Assembly: GCF_001723605.1 (NCBI RefSeq)
Contig: NZ_CP017111.1
Location: 1,054,001-1,118,000 of the forward strand
Source of the DNA: Sulfurospirillum halorespirans DSM 13726
GTDB taxonomy: Bacteria; Campylobacterota; Campylobacteria; Campylobacterales; Sulfurospirillaceae
Direction: 5' to 3'
Length of the DNA stretch: 64,000 nt
The notes under the pieces were generated by a model that did not search any database, was not told the origin of the DNA, and saw nothing but the letters and a program-made list of their open reading frames with translations. Of the stretch, positions 24,119 through 37,043 are shown piece after piece. How positions within the stretch are numbered: the first letter of the stretch is position 1; every line of letters starts with the position of its first letter. The position numbers were made by a program, and so were the translations under genes.

Positions 24119-27100
24119 ATGTCACTTAAAGTTGTTCTCTCGCATAAAACAGAATACCACTACGACCGCTACGTAGCGCTCTCACCGCACATCATCCGTT
24201 TGCGCCCTGCACCGCATAGTCGCACACCCATCGAGGCGTACTCCCTTAAAATAAAACCTGACAACCATTTTATCAACTGGCAGCAAGACCCGTTTGGCAA
24301 TTACCTCGCGCGCATCGTGTTTCCTGAAAAAACGAAAGAGTTGTGCATCGATGTCGAGATCATCGCTGATCTCATTACGATCAATCCGTTTGATTTTTTT
24401 GTCGATGAGTACGCCAGTGAGTTTCCTTTCTTTTACACCAAAGAGCTTCAAAAAGAGCTGATACCCTACCTCGAAGAGAGCGAAGATGGTGAGCTGTTGC
24501 GCTCTTTTGTACGCTCACTCGATTGCAAAAAACGCCCCATCATTGACTTTTTGGTCTATCTCAACTCTGCGATCAATCAACATTTAAACTACACCATAAG
24601 GTTAGAGCCGGGTGTGCAAAGCTGCGAAGTGACGCTGGGCAATAAACTGGGCAGTTGTCGCGATTTCGCGTGGTTGTTTGTGCAAGTGCTTCGTCATTTG
24701 GGGCTTGCGGCACGCTTTGTCTCTGGCTATTTGGTGCAACTCAAAGCCGATGTCACCTCTCTCGATGGCCCCAGTGGTCCTGAAGCGGACTTTACCGACC
24801 TTCACGCGTGGACAGAAGTCTACATTCCCGGAGCTGGCTGGGTTGGACTGGATTCGACCAGTGGACTGTTTGCAGGCGAAGGGCACATACCGCTTGCCTG
24901 CACGCCTTCATATGAAAGTGCGTACGCGATAGAGGGGCTGAGCGACCAATGCGAAACTGAATTTGTGTACGACAACACCGTCACACGCATCTTTGAGTCA
25001 CCGCGCGTCACCAAACCGTACCGTGATGACCAGTGGAATGCTATTTATAACTTGGGCTTTGCAGTGGACAAAGCCTTGGAAGAGGGCGATGTACGGCTTT
25101 CCATGGGTGGCGAGCCGACCTTTGTCTCCATCGACGACATGGAAGGCGATGAGTGGAACACCACAGCCGATGGCGAGCACAAACGCGCCCTTGCTGACAC
25201 CCTTTCACGAAAATTACTGAACTCGTTTGCCAAAGGCGGCATGCTCCATTACGCCCAAGGAAAATGGTACCCCGGAGAGCCGCTTCCAAGATGGCAAACC
25301 TCCATCATTTGGCGTAAAGATGACAAACCCATCTGGTACAATCCTGAGCTTTTTGCCGATATGAACGAAACGTATACCTACACCAACGAAGACGCCAAAC
25401 GCTTTTTAGCCAAGCTTTCACTCACCCTTGGCATCAGCGATCAAAACATCGTCGAAGCTTATGAAGATCCACTCTATTACATCGTCAAAGAGTCTGAACT
25501 GCCCATCGACATTGACCCGATGAAGTCTGATCTCTCTGATTCGTTAGAGCGAAGAACCATCGCTAAAGTACTCTCACAAGGGCTCAACAAGCCTGTGGGT
25601 TATGTGCTTCCACTCAATTATGGCGAGCGTGAATGGATGACATCAACATGGGAATTGCGTAGAGGTTATGTCTATCTGAGTGCAGGAAATTCACCGATGG
25701 GACTGAGACTTCCGCTGAGCTCCTTGCCTGAAAAACCCATAGATGCGTTGGCATTGCACCTTGAGCCAGACCTTTTCGCCCCGTATGCAGAGCTTAGTGA
25801 CTACACAGAAGCGGCAAAAAAGCGTTGTGCAGGAGCAGGAAAAACGAGCATTGAAGCGACGCATCACCGTGAGAAGTTTGTACGCACCGCCCTTTGTACG
25901 GAAGTACGCGATGGAAAGCTTTATGTTTTCCTTCCACCGCTCAATCATACAGAATCTTTTTTAGAGCTGATTGCAAGCATTGAAGCCGTGGCGGAATCTT
26001 TACATGTAAAGGTTGTTTTGGAAGGCTATGAACCTGCGCATGACCTCAGACTCGATCGCATCAAAGTCACACCAGACCCGGGCGTCATCGAGGTGAACAT
26101 CCAACCAGCAACCTCATGGAAAATGCTCAGCGATAATCTTTTACTACTCTACAAAGACGCGCGAGAGTCACGTTTGGGCACCGAAAAATTTATGCTAGAT
26201 GGCAAGCATACGGGCACAGGTGGGGGTAATCACGTCACCATCGGAGCGCTCAAACCCGAAGACAGTCCACTGCTTCGCCGTCCTGATCTGCTTCGCAGTC
26301 TCATCACCTTTTGGCAACATCATCCGGGGCTTTCATACCTTTTTTCAGGTGCGTTTATCGGTCCAACTTCGCAAGCACCACGCGTGGATGAGGGGAGAGT
26401 GGAAAATCTTTACGAGCTTGAGATCGCTTTTTCGCAAATTGGTGATGATGAAGAGGTGCCATTTTGGCTGACCGATCGCCTTTTTCGTCATATGCTGACC
26501 GACATCACAGGCAACACGCACCGAAGTGAATTTTGCATCGACAAGCTTTACTCCCCTGATTCGTCCAGTGGACGACTAGGTATCTTAGAACTTCGAGCGT
26601 TTGATATGCCACCTCATGCCCAAATGGCGCTGTTGCAGATGCTTTTAGTACGAACCTTAATCGCAGTATTTTGGAAAAAACCGTACAAACACAAGCTGGT
26701 TCGTTGGGGCACACAGCTTCACGATAAATTTTTGCTAGAGCATTACGTCAAAGAAGATTTGCGTGACATCGTAGAATTCTTACAAGCGGAAGGCTATGCG
26801 TTTGAGTTAAACTGGTTTGATCCTTTCTTTGAGTTTCGTTTTCCACTCTACGGCATGACGACGATCGCAAATATGAACTTAGAGCTTCGTGCCGCCATCG
26901 AGCCATGGAATGTCTTGGGCGAGGAGAGCAGTTCGCAAGGCACAGCGCGTTATGTGGACTCTTCCTTGGAGCGCGTGCAGGTCAAAGTGCAAAACTTTAC
27001 ACCCGAACGCTACACGCTTACATGTAACGCAGTGGCGATTCCTCTAGCACCTACAGGCATGGAAGGTGAGTTTGTCGCTGGCGTGAAGTACAAAGCGTGG

Positions 27101-27490
27101 GAGCCATACTCCGCGCTTCATCCAACCATCGGTGCGGACACGCCTTTGGTCTTTGATGTGGTCGATACATGGAATAAACGTTCCATCGGGGGGATGACCT
27201 ACTTTGTAGCGCATCCAGGTGGGCGCAATTACGACACTTTCCCTGTGAACAGCTACGAAGCAGAATCGCGTCGCATCAACCGTTTTTGGGACTTCAACCA
27301 CACCCAAGGTGAGGTCGAGTACCAAAGCAGTTCGGTAGTTACGCAACACGCAAATTCAGCAGAAGGCAGTGAGCGCACGGTTGTTGTGCATAAACCCAAA
27401 GCGCTTAAACAGTTTGTGTTTCAAGAACTGCCGATCAGCAGTGAATTTCCACATACACTCGATCTTAGACGAAAACGGAATACGAAATAG
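24119..27490 (+). CDS. transglutaminase-like / DUF2126 fusion protein of an amidoligase-type cluster
   Basis: The 1123-residue cytoplasmic protein has an N-terminal transglutaminase N-domain and core (about 1-290) with an intact triad: Cys180 in GSCRDF, His229 in LHAWTE, Asp245 in GLDSTSG. The long remainder matches the DUF2126 family (SMGGEPTFVSIDDMEG, KYTGTGGGNHVTIGA-like and GRLGILELRAFDMPPHAQM blocks), which is regularly fused or adjacent to transglutaminases. In the literature these genes travel with circularly permuted ATP-grasp and alpha-E proteins, and the set is predicted to make or process peptide or amide linkages; no biochemical product is known to me. The stop is directly followed by the ATG of the ATP-grasp gene, so translation is coupled. 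Palindrome copies at 26000 (LHVK) and 27018 (LTCN). Confidence 0.9.
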   Translation: MSLKVVLSHKTEYHYDRYVALSPHIIRLRPAPHSRTPIEAYSLKIKPDNHFINWQQDPFGNYLARIVFPEKTKELCIDVEIIADLITINPFDFFVDEYASEFPFFYTKELQKELIPYLEESEDGELLRSFVRSLDCKKRPIIDFLVYLNSAINQHLNYTIRLEPGVQSCEVTLGNKLGSCRDFAWLFVQVLRHLGLAARFVSGYLVQLKADVTSLDGPSGPEADFTDLHAWTEVYIPGAGWVGLDSTSGLFAGEGHIPLACTPSYESAYAIEGLSDQCETEFVYDNTVTRIFESPRVTKPYRDDQWNAIYNLGFAVDKALEEGDVRLSMGGEPTFVSIDDMEGDEWNTTADGEHKRALADTLSRKLLNSFAKGGMLHYAQGKWYPGEPLPRWQTSIIWRKDDKPIWYNPELFADMNETYTYTNEDAKRFLAKLSLTLGISDQNIVEAYEDPLYYIVKESELPIDIDPMKSDLSDSLERRTIAKVLSQGLNKPVGYVLPLNYGEREWMTSTWELRRGYVYLSAGNSPMGLRLPLSSLPEKPIDALALHLEPDLFAPYAELSDYTEAAKKRCAGAGKTSIEATHHREKFVRTALCTEVRDGKLYVFLPPLNHTESFLELIASIEAVAESLHVKVVLEGYEPAHDLRLDRIKVTPDPGVIEVNIQPATSWKMLSDNLLLLYKDARESRLGTEKFMLDGKHTGTGGGNHVTIGALKPEDSPLLRRPDLLRSLITFWQHHPGLSYLFSGAFIGPTSQAPRVDEGRVENLYELEIAFSQIGDDEEVPFWLTDRLFRHMLTDITGNTHRSEFCIDKLYSPDSSSGRLGILELRAFDMPPHAQMALLQMLLVRTLIAVFWKKPYKHKLVRWGTQLHDKFLLEHYVKEDLRDIVEFLQAEGYAFELNWFDPFFEFRFPLYGMTTIANMNLELRAAIEPWNVLGEESSSQGTARYVDSSLERVQVKVQNFTPERYTLTCNAVAIPLAPTGMEGEFVAGVKYKAWEPYSALHPTIGADTPLVFDVVDTWNKRSIGGMTYFVAHPGGRNYDTFPVNSYEAESRRINRFWDFNHTQGEVEYQSSSVVTQHANSAEGSERTVVVHKPKALKQFVFQELPISSEFPHTLDLRRKRNTK

Positions 27491-29971
27491 ATGAATTTTT
27501 TAGATAATTACAGTTCGGCTTCCCAGTTTGATGAGATGCTCGATGAGCAGTTGAGGGTTAGGGAACATTGGCAACCGCTTCTTGCACGCCTTGAATCGAT
27601 CAGCGCTGAAGAACTTGCCAATAAACAAGCCGAAATCACGTGGCATTTAGAAGACAACGGTGTGACGTACAACGTTTACAACGACCCAGAGGGTAATGGT
27701 AACCGTCCTTGGAGTTTAGACCCGATTCCGTTTGTCATCACCAAAACGGAATGGAAAACGATCAAACAAGGGATTAAACAGCGCGCTAAACTGTTCAATC
27801 TGATCTTAAAAGACCTCTACGGCGAGCAGAAACTCTTAAAAGAGAACATCATCCCTGCCGAGGTGATTTACGGGCATAAAGGGTTTATTCCTGCTGTTCA
27901 CTCGTTGGGCTTGATGGAGGATTTTCAGCTCCACTTTTACGCGCTTGACATGGCAAGGGGTCCTGATGGAAAAATGTGGGTCATCAATGATCGCACTCAA
28001 GCGCCCTCTGGTCTTGGCTACGCCGTTGAAAATCGCTTGACGATGAACATCGTCTCCAAAGATCTCTATCCCGAACACGCAATCAAAAAATTGCTTCCGT
28101 TCATCGATGAGTTTAAAAAATTGTTGAAAAAACTCTCCAAAGGCGACATCACCAAAGCAGCACTGCTAACTCCCGGACCTTTGAGCGAGACCTACTTTGA
28201 ACATGCCTATTTGAGCTCGTTTTTGGAGATCAACTTGGTCGAAGGCGATGATTTGCTCTCCAAAAATGGTGCGTTATGGCTGAAAAGTTTGAGTGGGCTG
28301 AAGCCTATTAACACTCTTTTAAGACGTTTGGATGACCGATTTTGTGACCCACTTGAACTTCGCAGTGACTCAAAACTGGGCGTTGCAGGCTTGGTCGATA
28401 GCTTAAGGCAAGGCAATCTTGCGATGATCAATCCCATCGGCAGTGCCATTGTTGAAAACATCGGGCTGAACCCTTTTATGGAGCGCATCTGTCACTATTT
28501 TTTAAACGAAGAGCTTTTGCTGCCACAGATCGCGACATGGTGGTGTGGACAGAGCCATGAACTGGAGTATGTGTTGGAGCATTTTGACACGCTCATCATC
28601 AAAAAGATTGACCGCACGGAAGCGATTCAGACGCATTTGGTGAAAAAACTCTCCAATGAGATGAAGCAGCAACTTAAAAATAGTATCCTGCAAAACCCTC
28701 ACCAGTACGTCGCGCAAGAGGAGATCAGCTTTTCAACGACTCCTTTTTACGCCAACGGAAGAATCGAGCCTCGCAACGCCGTTGTGCGTGCGTATGCCTT
28801 GAAAAAAAGTGAGAATTACACGGTGATGAACGGAGGACTGGTTCGCGTTTCTGCCTCCAAAGATGCACTCTTGGTCTCCTCACAAAAGGGTGGAACGAGT
28901 AAAGATTTGTGGATTTTGGGTGAAGATGACACGGTCGATATGAGCTCTATTTTTAACACATTGCCGTATGTGGATGTCTCGATTCAGACGATGCCCACGC
29001 GCAAAGCGGAAAACCTTTTTTGGTTGGGACGCTACCTTTGCCGTACCATCACAACCATTCGCCTTATTCGTTATGTGGTGAAAAAAATGACCAATTTTAG
29101 CCGTTATGAAGGGGCTTTGTCGCAGGAATCGCAACTGATTTTAGAAAAATCCTTGACCCATTTAACGATGACGTATCCGGGCTTTTTAGATGAAAAAATT
29201 GCGTACAATCAAATGAGTGAAATCGAGTCGCTCATCAAAGACAAGAGCAAACAAGGCGGACTCTCCTTTACGATGGAGATGCTTTTTAGCGCGAATGTCT
29301 CGATCAAAAGTCTGCTTGCGATCGAGGCATGGAAACTCTTTGATAAGATGCAAAAGGAGTGGAAAGTGTTTAATCGTAAAATCAACTCTCCGACACAAAC
29401 GATTTTAAGCGAGCTCGATAAATTTTTGCTCTACCTCGTTGCGTACAAAGAGTTGGTTGAAGAGAGCATGTACAAAGAGCAGGGGTTGATTTTGTATGAC
29501 ATCGGCTACAAGCTGGAATCGGCTCTTTTGACGATTTCCAAAGCGCGCTCGATGCTTTGTGTCAAACATGAAAAGTCCGCAAGCTACGACATTTTAGAAG
29601 GCATGCTCAATTCGTGTGAGAGTTTTAATGCGTATAGGACGCAGTATAAAAGCTCACTCCAACTGGACAATGTTTTGGAGTTTTTGATTTTAAGCCCGCA
29701 ATTTCCAAAGTCGATTGCGTACCTGACGAACGAGCTTTTGGAAGATCTCAAAGCGCTTCCTAAAAGCAAAAAGTATCTCAGTAGCTACGAAGAACCAGCG
29801 TTTCAAGCGTTTTCATCGCTTAAACTGACCAATGTTGCAAGCCTAATGCAGATAGAAGAGGGTGGAACGGTGTATCAAAAACTCGATGAATTTTTAGCAA
29901 AACTGACGGCGCATTTTTCGCTCTGTTCGATGGAGCTTTCCAAAACCTATTTTTCACACTACGATGAGTAA
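27491..29971 (+). CDS. circularly permuted ATP-grasp / alpha-E fusion protein
   Basis: The 826-residue protein fuses two modules that are separate genes in the cluster at 35011-37043. Residues 1 to about 490 are a circularly permuted ATP-grasp domain (COG2308 type), with the blocks WVINDRTQAPSGLGYAVENR, LLTPG.LSETYFEH and LLRRLDDRFCDPLELRSDS. The rest is an all-helical alpha-E domain starting KAENLFWLGRYLCRT. ATP-grasp enzymes activate a carboxylate as acyl-phosphate for attack by an amine; here a peptide-ligase role is predicted from family context only. It begins at the base after the previous stop and the next gene starts 3 nt after its own stop, so this is a three-gene operon. Confidence 0.9.
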   Translation: MNFLDNYSSASQFDEMLDEQLRVREHWQPLLARLESISAEELANKQAEITWHLEDNGVTYNVYNDPEGNGNRPWSLDPIPFVITKTEWKTIKQGIKQRAKLFNLILKDLYGEQKLLKENIIPAEVIYGHKGFIPAVHSLGLMEDFQLHFYALDMARGPDGKMWVINDRTQAPSGLGYAVENRLTMNIVSKDLYPEHAIKKLLPFIDEFKKLLKKLSKGDITKAALLTPGPLSETYFEHAYLSSFLEINLVEGDDLLSKNGALWLKSLSGLKPINTLLRRLDDRFCDPLELRSDSKLGVAGLVDSLRQGNLAMINPIGSAIVENIGLNPFMERICHYFLNEELLLPQIATWWCGQSHELEYVLEHFDTLIIKKIDRTEAIQTHLVKKLSNEMKQQLKNSILQNPHQYVAQEEISFSTTPFYANGRIEPRNAVVRAYALKKSENYTVMNGGLVRVSASKDALLVSSQKGGTSKDLWILGEDDTVDMSSIFNTLPYVDVSIQTMPTRKAENLFWLGRYLCRTITTIRLIRYVVKKMTNFSRYEGALSQESQLILEKSLTHLTMTYPGFLDEKIAYNQMSEIESLIKDKSKQGGLSFTMEMLFSANVSIKSLLAIEAWKLFDKMQKEWKVFNRKINSPTQTILSELDKFLLYLVAYKELVEESMYKEQGLILYDIGYKLESALLTISKARSMLCVKHEKSASYDILEGMLNSCESFNAYRTQYKSSLQLDNVLEFLILSPQFPKSIAYLTNELLEDLKALPKSKKYLSSYEEPAFQAFSSLKLTNVASLMQIEEGGTVYQKLDEFLAKLTAHFSLCSMELSKTYFSHYDE

Positions 29972-29974
29972 GTC

Positions 29975-30865
29975 ATGATGTACGAAATCTACCACAAAAC
30001 CGCCTTCAAATACGAAAGTATCGTCACGTTTAGCCACAACATCGCACGCCTAAAACCCAAAGACACGCCTTTTCAACGCGTGATGGATTTTGGCATGGAG
30101 ATCACGCCCATGCCGTATGAACAAAGCGAATTTGATGATATGTTTGGCAACCACACGACGCACCTTTTAATCCGAGAAGCGCATGAGTCACTTTCCGTCA
30201 TCGGTAAGTCTCATGTTGATCTCAATGGTGACGCAATGCGTTTACATGTAAACAATCTTCGCGCGCAAAGCACCTCGTACGAGGCATCTTTAGGCTTGTT
30301 GCAACAGTTTGACCTGAACGATCTGGTTGCGAAGCCATTTATGTTTGACTCAGCACTCATTCCCAAAGCGTCTCGTGGCATTGTCGAGTATGCAAAGCGT
30401 TCATTCACACCACAACGTAACCTTGTGGACGCCGCACAAGAATTCATGAACCGCATTTTTCAAGACTTCCAATTTGTCGCAGGTTTTAGCGATGTGACCA
30501 CGCCGATTGAAGAGATTTTCGAGGCGAAAAAGGGTGTCTGTCAAGACTTCGCACAGTTCGCCATCGCTGCCCTTCGCTCCATCGGTCTACCTGCAAAATA
30601 CATGAGCGGCTACATCGAAACCATCCCAGCAGTGGGCATGCCCAAACTCTTTGGTGCCGACGCATCCCACGCATGGTTTGCACTCCACATTCCTCGCCTT
30701 GGCTGGCTAGAACTCGACCCCACCAACAATATCATCCCTGAAGATCAACACATTTTACTAGGGAGTGGCAGAGACTACAACGACGTCGCACCCCTTAAAG
30801 GTGTCGTATTAAGCAGCGGACAGAGTGAACTCTCCATCGAAGTGAACGTGCAAAAGATGTTTTAA
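29975..30865 (+). CDS. transglutaminase-like protease-fold protein
   Basis: The 296-residue soluble protein has a bacterial transglutaminase N-terminal domain (about 1-90) and a core domain with an intact triad: Cys189 in GVCQDFA, His232 in SHAWFA, Asp248 in ELDPTNN. It begins MMYEIYHKTAFKYE, typical of the family found beside ATP-grasp/alpha-E genes. In such clusters the transglutaminase is thought to hydrolyse or transfer peptide bonds. It closes the plus-strand cluster; a palindrome (30871) starts 6 nt after the stop and could act as a hairpin. Another copy at 30242 is read LHVN. The first of two ATGs is taken because the spacing from the previous stop is 3 nt; the second is equally possible. 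Confidence 0.9.
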   Translation: MMYEIYHKTAFKYESIVTFSHNIARLKPKDTPFQRVMDFGMEITPMPYEQSEFDDMFGNHTTHLLIREAHESLSVIGKSHVDLNGDAMRLHVNNLRAQSTSYEASLGLLQQFDLNDLVAKPFMFDSALIPKASRGIVEYAKRSFTPQRNLVDAAQEFMNRIFQDFQFVAGFSDVTTPIEEIFEAKKGVCQDFAQFAIAALRSIGLPAKYMSGYIETIPAVGMPKLFGADASHAWFALHIPRLGWLELDPTNNIIPEDQHILLGSGRDYNDVAPLKGVVLSSGQSELSIEVNVQKMF

Positions 30866-30940: not shown

Positions 30941-31213
30941 ATGATAAAGTCATTTAAACATAAAGGTCTTCAACTTTTTTTTGAATCAGGGAGTCTCAAA
31001 GGTATTCAGGCTGATCATGCAAAAAAACTGAAAATGAGATTAGCGGCACTTGATACGGCAATGCTTATTGAAGATTTAAAGTTGCCTGGATTTGATTTGC
31101 ATGAACTTGAGGGCACTAAAAAAGGGATTTGGTCTATTTGGGTCAATGGAAATTGGAGACTCACGTTTACCTTTGAAAATGGCGATGTCTGTATTTTAAA
31201 TTACGAGGATTAG
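30941..31213 (+). CDS. higB: HigB-type toxin (RelE superfamily mRNA interferase)
   Basis: The 90-residue product has the standard HigB form, beginning MIKSFKHKGL and continuing with LKLPGFDLHELEG, WSIWVNGNWRLTF and the C-terminal LNYED. HigB toxins are ribosome-dependent mRNA endonucleases neutralised by HigA. Toxin first and antitoxin second is the usual hig order, and the two genes are 5 nt apart. No ribosome-binding site precedes the ATG; the promoter position predicts a leaderless transcript. The module lies in the gap between two convergent amidoligase-type clusters, a typical landing place for mobile toxin-antitoxin genes, although base composition is not strikingly different. Confidence 0.92.
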   Translation: MIKSFKHKGLQLFFESGSLKGIQADHAKKLKMRLAALDTAMLIEDLKLPGFDLHELEGTKKGIWSIWVNGNWRLTFTFENGDVCILNYED

Positions 31214-31218
31214 CACTA

Positions 31219-31509
31219 ATGACCATGCACAATCCGCCCCATCCTGGGCAATTTATCAAAGAGGTTTACCTTGATGACCTTCATATCAGTGAGCGAGAAG
31301 TAGCGCATAAACTAAGCGTTGCACCTTCTACCTTTCATCGCCTTATTGCAGGCAAAACCAATGTAACGCCTGAAATGGCACTGCGTCTTTCGATAACGTT
31401 AGGGCGAACGCCTGAGAGTTGGCTTGTGATGCAGGATAAATACAGTCTATGGATTCTTGGACGCTCGCTTAATCTTGATGCTGTTGAAAAGCTGGATGTA
31501 CCTGCATAA
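31219..31509 (+). CDS. higA: HigA-type antitoxin (XRE-family HTH)
   Basis: The 96-residue antitoxin has an N-terminal segment MHNPPHPGQFIKE and an XRE helix-turn-helix (about 22-75: SEREVAHKLSVAPSTFHRLIAGK.NVTPEMALRL) followed by the family ending TPESWLVMQDKYSLW. It should bind HigB and the inverted repeat upstream of higB. The start at 31219 is supported by GAGG about 10 nt upstream; the second ATG at 31225 is an alternative. Confidence 0.93.
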   Translation: MTMHNPPHPGQFIKEVYLDDLHISEREVAHKLSVAPSTFHRLIAGKTNVTPEMALRLSITLGRTPESWLVMQDKYSLWILGRSLNLDAVEKLDVPA

Positions 31510-32311: not shown

Positions 32312-32351
32312 AAGCTTTACATGTAAACCAAAAACGTTTACATGTAAGCTT
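32312..32351. terminator. nested palindrome pair forming a bidirectional hairpin between convergent genes
   Basis: AAGCTTTACATGTAAAC (32312-32328) and GTTTACATGTAAGCTT (32336-32351) are near-perfect inverted repeats with one extra T, around a 7-nt loop. Each arm itself contains a TTACATGTAA palindrome. It fills the 45-nt gap between two convergent genes and is the obvious terminator for both. Confidence 0.62.
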
Positions 32352-33304
32352 TAAAGAGTGTTCTGTGCGGATTCGACTTTGACGATGCGGTAGGCGATGG
32401 CGTTTTGGAAGATGAGCGAATAGTCGTATTTACAGGAGATGATGCCATCGCACGGTGAGATGATCGTCTGGATGAGTGTGCCATCGAGTGAGTTAAAAAT
32501 GCGCGCTAAGGGTTGACCATGCACGACAGAGTCACCGATGTTGGCGAGGGTGTCAAAGAGTCCTGCAGCACTACTTTTGATCGCTTCGATGTCGTTTGGC
32601 ATGACAAGATTGCCATGTGAGCCTTCAAAGGTTGAGAAGTCGATGAGCTCTTTTTTGACTAAAAAGCGCACGATTGCGTCAAACACTTTGTTCGCTTCAT
32701 GCTTGCGCAAGACACCTTTTTTGCCTGATATAAGAGAAAATGCTTTGGCATTCCAAACATTCCAGTTATACGTTAAAGAGACCGTGTCATTGGGCGTCTC
32801 TTCTTTGACGTGAATAAAATCAAGCCCAAAAGCTCTTGCATCCTCGATGTAGCTCATACCCGATTCGAGCACCTCGACATAAGGAATGCACTCGACGTGA
32901 TCTTTTCTCGCTTCGAGTAAAATCGCGTAGTCGTAGTTATTGGTTTTTTCAAACAAGCGTGAAGCGATGCGTTGAGTTGTTTCACCTTTGTCATAGCCTG
33001 GGAACATCACATCGATGTCGGTGTTATCGAGCGGCCAGAAGTTTTTCCCCATGTTAAAGGAGTAGGGATTGACGGTGGGGATGACGAGAATTTCACCTTT
33101 GACAAAGGCGGCATTGGCAAGTTCGTGTTGACGTAAAAAGCGCACCAATTGCGATGCTATCCAAAGCTGATCGATAGCCGTGCCCATCATAGGTCCTACG
33201 ATGACGCAACTAGGCGTCGTGCCCTCTCTTCCAAAACGAAACCCTTTGACTTTGAGAGGATTGCGACTGAGCGAGCTGATCTCAAATAAAACTTCTTCTT
33301 TCAT
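32351..33304 (-). CDS. AstE/AspA-like protein that has lost its zinc site (second of tandem pair)
   Basis: The 317-residue member of the succinylglutamate desuccinylase/aspartoacylase (M14-like) family shares its fold and C-terminal biotinyl-like ending (SPCDGIISCKYDYSLI) with the neighbour at 33301. The usual HxxE zinc motif is replaced by PMMGTA: Met40 stands where His and Ala43 where Glu should be. The third ligand position is Glu131 (AILLEARKD in place of AIDIHASN). It is therefore probably catalytically dead and may be a regulatory or binding partner of the intact paralogue. Start overlaps the previous stop by ATGA (33301-33304). It is the last gene of the five-gene minus-strand cluster. 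Confidence 0.85.
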   Translation of the reverse strand: MKEEVLFEISSLSRNPLKVKGFRFGREGTTPSCVIVGPMMGTAIDQLWIASQLVRFLRQHELANAAFVKGEILVIPTVNPYSFNMGKNFWPLDNTDIDVMFPGYDKGETTQRIASRLFEKTNNYDYAILLEARKDHVECIPYVEVLESGMSYIEDARAFGLDFIHVKEETPNDTVSLTYNWNVWNAKAFSLISGKKGVLRKHEANKVFDAIVRFLVKKELIDFSTFEGSHGNLVMPNDIEAIKSSAAGLFDTLANIGDSVVHGQPLARIFNSLDGTLIQTIISPCDGIISCKYDYSLIFQNAIAYRIVKVESAQNTL

Positions 33305-34254
33305 AGGGCGGTGTCCTCTTTGGGGTCTTCAAGTATGCGCGCAAGAAGGGAGCCTTCGTACACGACGGGGTATTCGCGAATGGTAAATAACAAGCCATTG
33401 CAGGGGCTAATGAGTGTTTCTTGAATGCGCCCTGAAAGCGGATCGATGATTTCCCCGAGTTTTTCACCTTTTAAAACAGTGACATTGTGCTCTAAAATAG
33501 GAATGAAAATCCCTGATTTGGAAGCGTTAACAAAAAAGACTTCCGAATGCAGGTTTGAAACGGTCGTTTTGGTTGTCGGCAGTACGGCTCTTTCGATGAT
33601 GCCCACGTGTGCGAGCAGGTTTAAAATACCTTTGGTGAGGCTTTGCCCATACTCTTTAGTAATACGCATTCCAACACCCATCTCCACGACCAGCGTTTTG
33701 GTGCCAAGGGAGTTCATCGCATGCGCAAAGGTAGACTCCAAAACAGTCACTGCGTCGTGCACCCAAATAAACTCAATGTCGAGTTTTTCCGCTAAGGGGA
33801 TGAGTTCATCAGCGGTTGAACGACTGATGCGCACTTGGGGAAGTTCACGTAAAAAAATGTTGCTTGCATGAATATCGATGGCAAAGTCACTGCCTCTGAC
33901 GGTATCGACGATAGCATTTGCCACTTGTGAAGGCAAAAAATCAGCGGTATTGCCAGGGAAATTGCGGTTGAGATCGACATCGTAAAAAGGAAAGCCCCTT
34001 GTGATGCTGTCGATGCCCATCGGATTCATAGAGGGGTAAATGTCCACAATGCCTTTGATGCAGTGTTGGTTAGCGTTCAGCCATTTTGCAAGCAGATAAC
34101 AGACGTATTGTCCTTCGATCTCATCGCCGTGAATGCCCGTGACGATCGAGATGCGTTTGGTTGAGGTGGCAATGTCCTCAGGCGAAAAGCGGTTGCGTCT
34201 GAGCGTTAAGGTTTCATTGACAGGTAAGTTGACGTTAAAGACCTCTTCAATCAT
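33301..34254 (-). CDS. succinylglutamate desuccinylase/aspartoacylase-family zinc hydrolase
   Basis: The 317-residue M14-like metallohydrolase has an intact zinc site: His42 and Glu45 in GIHGDEIEG and His129 in AIDIHASN; the catalytic Glu is likely in LVVEMGVG. Family members remove acyl groups or cleave amide bonds next to a carboxylate (AstE, AspA); several are found beside ATP-grasp/alpha-E clusters, where they may trim the peptide product. It overlaps the transglutaminase-like gene upstream and the degenerate paralogue downstream by 4 nt each, so all are translationally coupled. The real substrate is unknown. Confidence 0.88.
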   Translation of the reverse strand: MIEEVFNVNLPVNETLTLRRNRFSPEDIATSTKRISIVTGIHGDEIEGQYVCYLLAKWLNANQHCIKGIVDIYPSMNPMGIDSITRGFPFYDVDLNRNFPGNTADFLPSQVANAIVDTVRGSDFAIDIHASNIFLRELPQVRISRSTADELIPLAEKLDIEFIWVHDAVTVLESTFAHAMNSLGTKTLVVEMGVGMRITKEYGQSLTKGILNLLAHVGIIERAVLPTTKTTVSNLHSEVFFVNASKSGIFIPILEHNVTVLKGEKLGEIIDPLSGRIQETLISPCNGLLFTIREYPVVYEGSLLARILEDPKEDTAL

Positions 34255-35021
34255 TGTTCATTCCTCTCAATTCTACCCATGATTTCTAAAATATGCTGAC
34301 GCTTACCGATGTAACTGCCTCTGTGAATCTGACACTCTGAAAAATCACGCCCATGAGCGATCTTGATGTAAGGCTCATCATGGATGAAGATGCCGCTTTG
34401 CGGATCAAGTCCTCTCCAATCTCCATCCATAAACGCTTCCACCCAAGTATGTGTTTTATTGACACCATCAATAAAGCCATTGACAAAACGTGCAGGAATG
34501 CCGTTGCTGCGCAGGAGTGCAATCAGCAAATGGCTAAAATCTTGACTGATGCCCTCTTTGTAGAGCAAAAACGTCTCAAGGCCTTTGGCTTTAGGCTCTT
34601 CTATGGGTTTAAATTGCTCATAGAGCAGTTGGGTTAAAAAATGTGCTTTGCGAAAGTCCGTTATAGGAAGCTTGAGTGAACGGGAAAAGTCGCGCACATC
34701 TTCGCACAAAGGTGCCAATGTAGAGTGTGGCAGATAAAGCTCCACGGGCTCTTTGTCGTGATACACATAAGGAGAGAGTTCTATCTCACCTTCGATGTTG
34801 GCTTTAAGCGCACGGTGCGGTTTCCCAAAATAGCCATACACCAAATGGTTTTCAAATCCATCACGTGTTTGGTAATAGGGTATGCCATCGTTAAGACTGA
34901 GTTTCCACTCAAGAAGCGTTTGTATGGCATTGGTGTACGGTACCATGCGCAGACAAAAGTGATGGTTGCGTACGGGCTCATCAAACGTGAGCGTAAAATC
35001 GTAAGAAAAATTAACTTTCAT
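34251..35021 (-). CDS. transglutaminase-like protein lacking the catalytic cysteine
   Basis: The 256-residue protein aligns with the transglutaminase at 29975, but the catalytic Cys is Ser159 (EGISQDFS versus KGVCQDFA). His191 (THTWVEAF) and Asp206 (GLDPQSG) of the triad are kept. The AGT codon is clear in the sequence. The protein may be inactive, may use Ser as a weak nucleophile, or may bind substrate only. The intact copy in the other cluster makes this an active/inactive pair. It overlaps the alpha-E gene by 11 nt and the hydrolase gene by ATGA, so it sits mid-operon. Confidence 0.88.
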   Translation of the reverse strand: MKVNFSYDFTLTFDEPVRNHHFCLRMVPYTNAIQTLLEWKLSLNDGIPYYQTRDGFENHLVYGYFGKPHRALKANIEGEIELSPYVYHDKEPVELYLPHSTLAPLCEDVRDFSRSLKLPITDFRKAHFLTQLLYEQFKPIEEPKAKGLETFLLYKEGISQDFSHLLIALLRSNGIPARFVNGFIDGVNKTHTWVEAFMDGDWRGLDPQSGIFIHDEPYIKIAHGRDFSECQIHRGSYIGKRQHILEIMGRIERNEQ

Positions 35022-35694
35022 GCTTTGTGGTCAATGCCTCGAATACTGAATTTATGGTTTGTAATGTTTTAGGTTTATTGCTTGACGAGAGTGTAACACG
35101 TTTATGATTTGGGCGAACTTTTTCAGCAATACTGTTAAGCTTTTCCACATCCATCAAAGCCGCTTCAATGCTGTCATAAAGGCGAATATTAAGATCCATT
35201 CGCTCTACCACTTTGCCCAATTGAATCAAGGGAGACTCTTTGGCTTCAACGAGTGAAAGCTCCAAATTGCCCCAAATCGCATCAAGCTCTTTGAGCGTAC
35301 TCTCTAACCAATAGAGCGAAACAGTGCGTTCCTCTTTAGCTTCTTGGTAGGCTAAATAGAGCGCATTGATACGGCTAAACATACGGTTTGAAAGGTGTGA
35401 GCGTGTCAAAATGGCATTTTCACGCGCTGCGTTGATCGTGTTGCATAAGCTCGCATATTCTAAATTAAAGACACTTTCTCTCAAAAACATTTGTGCAGAG
35501 TCGTACGCAAGTTCGATGCCAAGTTTGGCGTAAAACGCCTTTGCATCATCAAAATCTTCATCTAAAATTTTGTCAAAAAGAGCAATGACCAGACGTGTCA
35601 TACTCTCGGAGCGTTGAATGTACCTGCCCATCCAGTAAAGATGTTCTGCCGCTTGTGGTGGTATGAGAATCATCTGTGCTCCTTTAAAACCCAT
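35011..35694 (-). CDS. alpha-E domain protein
   Basis: The 227-residue all-helical protein of the alpha-E family (COG2307 type) has its diagnostic start at AAEHLYWMGRYIQRSESMTRL and continues as amphipathic helices to the end. It corresponds to the C-terminal part of the fusion protein at 27491 (KAENLFWLGRYL). Its function is unknown; it always accompanies circularly permuted ATP-grasp proteins and may be a scaffold or a second catalytic unit. The frame overlaps the ATP-grasp gene by 25 nt, so the true start may be the second Met (MILIPPQAAEH), which still overlaps. Confidence 0.88.
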   Translation of the reverse strand: MGFKGAQMILIPPQAAEHLYWMGRYIQRSESMTRLVIALFDKILDEDFDDAKAFYAKLGIELAYDSAQMFLRESVFNLEYASLCNTINAARENAILTRSHLSNRMFSRINALYLAYQEAKEERTVSLYWLESTLKELDAIWGNLELSLVEAKESPLIQLGKVVERMDLNIRLYDSIEAALMDVEKLNSIAEKVRPNHKRVTLSSSNKPKTLQTINSVFEALTTKHES

Positions 35695-37043
35695 GTATCT
35701 TTAAATCCGCCACCTTGGGAAGAATTGACGATGTAACTGGTCGGGTCCATCGCAAAACGTGTAAGACCTCCAGGCCAGACAAAAATATCTTCACCGTAAA
35801 TCGAGAACATCCGAAGGTCGGCTTTGCGAGGTGAAAAGGTACCTGCTTCATCCAAACATTCGATGTCGTAAAACTCAATTACCTCTTGCGCGATGAAGCG
35901 TCTAGGCTCTGCGATAATAGCATCTTTGAGCTTTTCACGTTCACTCTTAGTCAGTTGTGAGCCAAACACAACGCCATACCCTCCCGCTTCGGCAACATCT
36001 TTGATGACGAGGGTTCGCATATTTTGTAAAATATGGTTGCGATCTTTCTCAAAAAACGCTAAGAAGGTTGGTGCATTTTGCAAGATCGGCTCTTCATTCA
36101 TGTAATACTTAATCATTGCAGGCACGAAGTAGTAAATGCCCTTATCGTCTGCGATGCCGTTTCCAATGCTGTTCATGAGTGCTACATTACCTGCACGGTA
36201 CGCTTGCGTGATGTTGGAAACTCCGATCAAAGAGTCTGGATGAAACTCGACTGGATCAAGCGCATCATCATCCAAACGACGGTAAATAGCGCCCACGCGT
36301 GCTTTTTTGCCATTGTACGTTTTAAGATAGACTTTGTCTTTCTCCACCACCAAGTCTTCACCATTGGCAAGAATCGCGCCGCTCTCTTTGGCTAAGTAAG
36401 AGTGCTCGTAAAACGCAGAATTATAACGACCCGGTGTTAAGATGACATTGATGCCACCCGTGTTGACGTAGTTCATCGCCGCTTCGAGTTTTTTCGGGTA
36501 ATCTCTTACGTCTTGAATCGGCAGTTTCTCAAAAAATTCAGGAAACACTTTGCGTGTCAGCATACGAAGTGAAAGTGGATAACTCACGCCACTGGGCACT
36601 CGTATGTTGTCTTCAAGCACAACCCAACCATCTCCAACGCTGTTTTTCACAAGGTCGATACCGCTGATGTGCACGCGAATGTTTTTCGCCACAGGCGTGT
36701 TGGCAAATGCGGGCAGATAAGCTTTGGATGAGAAGACGAATTCACTAGGGATGATGCCATCTTTGAGAATTTTCTGTGCTCCGTAAATGTCTTCTAAAAA
36801 AAGATTGAGTGCGTAGATGCGCTGTTGTATCCCTTTTTCAAGGTAGGCAAATTCTGAGGGTGAGACGATTCTAGGAATAATGTCAAAGGGAAATTTGCGC
36901 TCTATAAAAGCGTTGTTTTTAAAAAGGTTGAAGTTGATCGCTTCGGTATTCATGTAAGTGAGCAACTCTTGGACGCGGTTTTTATCGATCGTGTTTAAGA
37001 TGCCTTTAAACGCATCATAGAATGGACTGTTTGACTCAATCAT
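35670..37043 (-). CDS. circularly permuted ATP-grasp protein (COG2308 type)
   Basis: The 457-residue enzyme is equivalent to the N-terminal half of the 27491 fusion, with shared blocks WVVLEDNIRVPSGVSYPL, ILTPGRYNSAFYEHSYLA, RRLDDDALDPVEFHPDSL and SQGGGFKDTWVL. The family is predicted to ligate amines to carboxylates with ATP. It heads a minus-strand operon of five overlapping genes: ATP-grasp, alpha-E, transglutaminase-like, AstE-like and degenerate AstE-like. AAAGG lies before the ATG at 37043. Having a split version here and a fused version in the other cluster suggests separate ancestry rather than recent duplication. Confidence 0.9.
   Translation of the reverse strand: MIESNSPFYDAFKGILNTIDKNRVQELLTYMNTEAINFNLFKNNAFIERKFPFDIIPRIVSPSEFAYLEKGIQQRIYALNLFLEDIYGAQKILKDGIIPSEFVFSSKAYLPAFANTPVAKNIRVHISGIDLVKNSVGDGWVVLEDNIRVPSGVSYPLSLRMLTRKVFPEFFEKLPIQDVRDYPKKLEAAMNYVNTGGINVILTPGRYNSAFYEHSYLAKESGAILANGEDLVVEKDKVYLKTYNGKKARVGAIYRRLDDDALDPVEFHPDSLIGVSNITQAYRAGNVALMNSIGNGIADDKGIYYFVPAMIKYYMNEEPILQNAPTFLAFFEKDRNHILQNMRTLVIKDVAEAGGYGVVFGSQLTKSEREKLKDAIIAEPRRFIAQEVIEFYDIECLDEAGTFSPRKADLRMFSIYGEDIFVWPGGLTRFAMDPTSYIVNSSQGGGFKDTWVLKEHR

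Follow-up and report, generated by a model that had tools for sequence, protein, structure and literature searches.

Why is the gene for a predicted zinc-dependent amidohydrolase followed directly by a homologous gene whose product has lost the residues of the active site, and what might the second protein do? The question is raised by an operon of Sulfurospirillum halorespirans DSM 13726 (GCF_001723605.1, contig NZ_CP017111.1) that lies within the window analyzed here, a stretch of 64,000 nt corresponding to positions 1,054,001-1,118,000 of the forward strand. We call the two proteins AstE-A and AstE-B and use A and B for the respective homologues in other genomes. The features of the operon, in window coordinates, are as follows.

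35670..37043, minus strand: circularly permuted (CP) ATP-grasp, first gene of the operon (PF14403, E=1e-136)
35011..35694, minus strand: short Alpha-E protein, 227 aa (PF04168, E=6.8e-23)
34251..35021, minus strand: transglutaminase-like protein, with Ser159 (codon 34545-34547) in place of the Cys nucleophile but with His and Asp retained (PF01841/PF08379)
33301..34254, minus strand: AstE-A, predicted AstE/AspA-type M14-fold metallo-amidohydrolase with intact active site, 317 aa (PF24827, PDB matches, invariant site)
34129..34131, minus strand: codon of AstE-A His42, predicted zinc ligand; counterpart AstE-B Met40 at 33185-33187 (sequence, BLASTP, MAFFT)
34120..34122, minus strand: codon of AstE-A Glu45, predicted zinc ligand; counterpart AstE-B Ala43 at 33176-33178 (sequence, BLASTP, MAFFT)
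33868..33870, minus strand: codon of AstE-A His129, predicted zinc ligand; counterpart AstE-B Glu131 at 32912-32914
33682..33684, minus strand: codon of AstE-A Glu191, predicted general base (alignments with relatives)
33301..33304, minus strand: 4-nt stop/start overlap ATGA between the AstE-A and AstE-B genes (sequence)
32351..33304, minus strand: AstE-B, 317-aa paralogue of AstE-A predicted to be catalytically dead (PF24827, predicted fold, ligand loss in homologues)

The active sites of AstE-A and AstE-B

AstE-A matched PF24827 (AstE_AspA_cat) with E=5.8e-20 and 72.1 bits against a curated cut-off of 25, and its best sequence matches in the PDB were AstE/AspA-family entries including DoeB. 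None of the specific NCBIfam equivalog cut-offs was reached by AstE-A, and a PF04952 profile search of the window's genome gave no matches, as this model represents a different part of the AstE/AspA family. The zinc site residues His42, Glu45, and His129 were present in 99/99 A sequences covering these positions and Glu191 in 100/100. Among 65 dereplicated A sequences the HxxE...H site, the Asn-Arg pair, and the catalytic Glu were invariant, except that Arg97 was found in 63 of the 65. These matches identify AstE-A as an AstE/AspA-type M14-fold amidohydrolase with a predicted working active site.

AstE-B also exceeded the PF24827 cut-off, although weakly (29.9 bits versus 25, E=5.1e-7). BLASTP aligned the two proteins end to end (E = 5e-20, 21% identity across 314 positions, C-terminal domain included) and paired His42 with Met40, Glu45 with Ala43, and His129 with Glu131. 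The same pairing was given by MAFFT, by alignments with 22 and with about 100 relatives, and by hhalign profile-profile alignment (99.8%). The original prediction of two tandem proteins of equal length, overlapping by 4 nt and sharing the C-terminal domain, with an intact zinc site in one and exactly these substitutions in the other, was thus borne out. What it missed is that Glu191, which has a hydrophobic residue as its counterpart, and the substrate-binding Asn96-Arg97 are also replaced in AstE-B of the window, which by alignment has neither the zinc ligands nor the catalytic Glu of an active enzyme.

The predicted structure of AstE-B (mean pLDDT 87.6) matched AstE/AspA-family structures with Z scores of 25-27 over 281-298 residues (Z 27.4 to 3cdx and 6twm). 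This match covers nearly the full chain and indicates that AstE-B folds as a member of the family while lacking the site; by sequence and predicted fold AstE-B belongs to the AstE/AspA fold family. In its homologues His was found at position 42 in 0/101 sequences and at position 129 in 0/102, and Glu at position 191 in 0/102. The loss is therefore conserved among relatives, with about 102 B proteins lacking both His ligands and the catalytic Glu, and B is a genuine conserved pseudo-hydrolase.

The loss has taken two forms. The B sequences were dereplicated at 90%, giving 32 sequences from Campylobacterota and 38 from elsewhere. Outside Campylobacterota the residues found were Arg42 (37/37), Glu45 (37/37), Asn96 and Arg97 (both 38/38), Ala129 (33/38), and Tyr191 (36/38); judged from the alignment, both His and the catalytic Glu have been lost there, whereas Glu45 and the Asn-Arg pair have been retained. 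In Campylobacterota the loop 42-45 is variable and Arg97 has been replaced by Met, Val, Thr, or Ala, but a motif E131-x-R133-x-D135, to which Glu131 of AstE-B belongs, is conserved (Glu131 32/32, Arg133 32/32, Asp135 31/32). C139 is a further conserved polar residue of this group. Constraint thus acts on the dead site too: it is invariant outside Campylobacterota, whereas in Campylobacterota it has changed further, to ExRxD. The statement that all ligands are lost thus holds for nearly all Campylobacterota B proteins but not for those elsewhere, which keep Glu45; as Campylobacterota B has lost more, the state seen in the window is a later stage. With two lineages that fixed two different replacements, the B series is well suited to the study of how lost metal sites are re-used.

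Distribution, selection, and history of the pair

Of 298 Campylobacterota genomes, 22 carried full-length B; orthologous A was present in all of these 22 and in no others, with the two genes adjacent in every case. When a B profile was run against 84,980 species genomes, at least 578 confirmed relatives were obtained; the best 80 of them, together with later additions, included Clostridia (Ruminococcus, Oscillospiraceae, Lachnospiraceae), Desulfovibrionaceae, and a few Bacteroidales MAGs. As MAGs may be contaminated, Bacteroidales were checked separately and the pair was present in 5/149 genomes. Among Desulfovibrionaceae it was present in 8/149 genomes, counting one partial B. In the family of Ruminococcus flavefaciens full-length B was found in about 20 of 148 genomes, and the search for A returned those same genomes. 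The asymmetry of one active and one dead protein holds for 22/22 Campylobacterota pairs and about 100 pairs over four phyla, which is far beyond chance, and the pair is more general than is visible from the window alone.

A conserved paralogous partner without metal ligands hence accompanies active A, the exceptions being two Ruminococcus-family genomes in which additional A or B genes stand alone; both genomes also carry the full operon. The adjacency of A and B is thus not absolute. The solitary A genes lie at L161:5298-6242 and L163:4858-5814 and the solitary B gene at L162:2675-3619; in the A of L161 Arg97 is replaced by Lys and the FPG motif is lost. In another genome (G323) A stands beside a truncated B in an operon that looks broken.

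The gene order CP-ATP-grasp, Alpha-E, (transglutaminase), A, B was kept in Campylobacterota, Clostridia, Desulfovibrionaceae, and Bacteroidales. Among homologous A-B junctions 57/108 have a 4-nt overlap and 8 more have a 1-nt overlap, and the ATGA overlap of the AstE-A and AstE-B genes suggests translational coupling. Anbu was sought in the genomes tested: the only PF00227 protein of the window's genome is a 181-aa HslV beside HslU, and no pair-bearing genome tested had a second proteasome-type gene, each having at most one PF00227 match.

Between pairs of Sulfurospirillum genomes, B gave dN/dS values of 0.026-0.061 and A values of 0.022-0.073, and B is under purifying selection as is A. In a joint tree, which does not resolve the root against other AstE proteins, A was monophyletic (support 0.92), as was B (0.999), and each split into Campylobacterota versus the rest. 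The matching two-group splits mean that the duplication predates the split or that the operon moved as a unit. As read from the alignments and the tree, the loss of catalytic residues in B is old and conserved.

Possible roles for AstE-B

From the sequence comparisons the role of B is most likely either in a heteromer with A or in the control of A. The preferred reading, to which we assign a probability of about 0.6, is that AstE-A and AstE-B are products of an ancient duplication and form an obligate pair in which B is a dedicated non-catalytic partner of active A, by a logic like that of TldD/TldE and in the place of Anbu. Within the AstE/AspA branch of M14-fold metallo-amidohydrolases, the duplication would have given A, which kept the zinc site, and B, which would have lost it before Campylobacterota parted from the lineage of Clostridia, Desulfovibrionaceae, and Bacteroidales and would then have been kept as a non-catalytic partner. 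Translational coupling would supply the two proteins in matched amounts, and A and B would most likely join in a heteromer, with A as the cutting subunit and B shaping the substrate channel, stabilizing A, or holding substrate or product. The pair, sitting where the Anbu peptidase sits in related operons of other bacteria, would hydrolyze an amide or peptide that the CP-ATP-grasp, Alpha-E, and transglutaminase enzymes make or handle. The heterodimers put forward in the original prediction are a reasonable idea, and the peptide trimming it proposed is plausible from the family to which the proteins belong. As B has been kept beside A in at least four bacterial phyla, its gene is probably not a broken one but encodes a partner subunit without catalytic activity.

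A bolder form of this proposal, which we hold only tentatively and at somewhat below even odds, is that a two-subunit, half-dead amidohydrolase has replaced Anbu in the amide-forming Alpha-E/ATP-grasp system over four phyla and that B outside Campylobacterota, as part of this enzyme, holds the substrate for active A. The substrate-holding role is drawn from the invariant Arg-Glu at the place of the zinc and the carboxylate-binding Asn-Arg in that group of B proteins.

The same residues would also serve a B protein that forms no lasting complex with A. Such a B could act as a regulator or scaffold that binds a ligand: the former pocket would take up substrate or product and thereby control the ATP-grasp/Alpha-E machinery or A, a reading we regard as rather unlikely. 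The retained Asn-Arg and the fixed Arg-Glu replacing the metal outside Campylobacterota would fit it, as would the solitary copy of B away from A. Coevolution gives it some support as well: the A-B distance correlation was 0.92, with similar values for CP and Alpha-E, and in the whole-set mirror-tree comparison, which does not pick out A-B, B correlated with CP and Alpha-E as highly as with A (0.954, 0.952, 0.934). Only the within-group partial correlations therefore hint at more than a shared operon history. With CP and Alpha-E controlled, the A-B partial correlation, which speaks for the preferred pairing of A with B, was 0.64 outside and 0.53 inside Campylobacterota, but inside Campylobacterota the correlations of A with CP (0.56) and with Alpha-E (0.64) were at least as strong. 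Against the regulator reading, the replacement of Arg97 by Met, Val, Thr, or Ala means that carboxylate binding by the pocket has not been conserved in Campylobacterota B. Moreover, B vanishes together with A rather than with CP. Three Campylobacterota genomes of three families, each family also containing pair-bearing members, keep CP-ATP-grasp and the short Alpha-E but lack A, B, and transglutaminase, and none of the three has A or B alone.

That B is still an enzyme, with another metal site or with chemistry that needs no metal, seems to us quite improbable. The newly conserved polar residues E131, R133, D135, and C139 of Campylobacterota B and the invariant set of the other group could be taken for the makings of a new site, but those residues are not common to the two groups, neither group offers two conserved His, and the general-base position is never acidic. 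Other His or Glu ligands, the finding named at the outset as the one that would speak against a dead AstE-B, were sought by profile alignment and by a survey of conserved His in each column of both B groups. The only mostly-His columns were H165 (91%) in the 32 dereplicated Campylobacterota sequences and H142 in the 38 others, at differing positions; as there is no conserved two-His site, this objection to the loss fails.

The original prediction had also linked dead AstE-B to the Cys-less transglutaminase as two pseudoenzymes of one operon, and a joint control layer formed by the two is very improbable. Both do stand in one operon here, and the transglutaminase is still constrained, with dN/dS of 0.05-0.085 between Ser-bearing genomes. 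It reads GISQDF where active relatives read GVCQDF, retaining His and Asp. The Ser form is confined to five sampled Sulfurospirillum genomes (the subclade of the window), and two close relatives read GLRNDF, with Arg-Asn instead of Cys-Gln. Cys is intact in seven other Campylobacterota loci (five other Sulfurospirillum and two further loci) and in 55/55 loci outside Campylobacterota. Of the 28 Campylobacterota operons in which CP and Alpha-E are full-length, 22 lack the gene. Nearly everywhere else that dead B occurs, the transglutaminase of the operon is therefore intact or absent, and the link does not stand. Loss of the nucleophile is a recent and separate event in a gene still under purifying selection; being restricted, and in a gene often absent, it differs in age from the loss in B and is not part of one co-evolved scheme. 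The census of Cys contradicts a joint layer as a general scheme, which could hold only in a few Sulfurospirillum.

Finally, that B is a decaying, functionless duplicate is scarcely credible: the catalytic residues are lost and one Ruminococcus-family genome (G331) has stop codons in both A and B, but dN/dS of 0.03-0.06, an ORF intact in essentially all loci, many invariant positions, and conservation over four phyla contradict pseudogene status.

Operon context and comparison with known systems

To our knowledge, no product is known for Alpha-E/CP-ATP-grasp systems, and tests of Anbu reportedly revealed neither activity nor a partner. AstE-A, as a hydrolase with a predicted working site, offers a handle for finding the amide that such systems make. 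A second amide-forming cluster lies at 24119-30865 on the plus strand and is composed of a transglutaminase-DUF2126 fusion, a CP-ATP-grasp/Alpha-E fusion, and a transglutaminase whose Cys is intact. This cluster adjoins the A/B operon in many Campylobacterota, an adjacency which suggests a shared pathway. Between the two clusters (30941-31509) is a small unit of two genes that by eye resembles a HigB/HigA-type toxin-antitoxin pair. Peptidase C26 (gamma-glutamyl hydrolase type) genes were found near eleven Ruminococcus-type loci, directly after B in three (L096:6574-8022, L104:8936-9643, and L109:3728-5076), and give a weak hint of gamma-glutamyl amides. A RelA/SpoT-domain protein comes after B in ten other Ruminococcus operons, and in two genomes (G287 and G191) an extra, longer Alpha-E-like gene lies just upstream of the CP-ATP-grasp gene (L047:6149-6970 and L048:6214-7035).

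The Anbu operon is composed of ATP-grasp, Alpha-E, transglutaminase, and Anbu (PMC6376114, PMC5666114). The operon in the window begins with these three gene families in identical order, although most Campylobacterota lack the transglutaminase, and a hydrolase again follows, but the hydrolase slot is filled by AstE-A and AstE-B and the genomes tested have no Anbu. Pull-downs of Anbu gave no complex with its operon partners (PMC6376114), which counts against the heteromer reading of AstE-A/AstE-B. Anbu rises in nitrogen-limited Pseudomonas putida (PMC5666114). As a DUF404/DUF407/DUF403/transglutaminase cluster of Burkholderia is controlled by NtrC under nitrogen control (PMC5491218), sigma-54 sites were sought in the window; matches were at chance level, with none ahead of the operon.

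The closest solved members by fold, DoeB/EutE (6TWM) and CphZ (8EIN), have the fold of AstE-B and the full zinc-site pattern of AstE-A. Our literature search found no description of a conserved dead partner for AstE/AspA-family members. Inactive M14-fold homologues are known from vertebrates and yeast (AEBP1, CPXM1, CPXM2, CPD domain III, and Ecm14), the review of which names no AstE/AspA-type case (PMC11266112). In AEBP1, CPXM2, and CPD domain III the catalytic Glu has become Tyr, as in B outside Campylobacterota (PMC11266112), a parallel that carries no evidence of relationship. Unlike B, the eukaryotic pseudopeptidases are extracellular and have no operon pairing with an active twin.

The nearest likeness is to E. 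coli TldD/TldE, in which an active subunit is likewise joined by a homologous subunit that retains none of the metal ligands; the authors infer that the catalytic center was lost from one copy of TldD to give TldE, and it was demonstrated that the two proteins form a complex and that neither is dispensable (PMC5810440). The two systems are not homologous: the fold of TldD is unrelated and its metal motif is HExxxH, whereas Pfam gives only PF24827 for the AstE pair and the site of A is HxxE...H. The complex demonstrated for TldD/TldE is one that AstE-A and AstE-B may form. Pairing of an active with a dead enzyme is thus a known kind of arrangement, of which AstE-A/AstE-B is a variant and, if the preferred reading is true, the AstE/AspA branch would join the small number of metallopeptidase families in which such a pairing is conserved.
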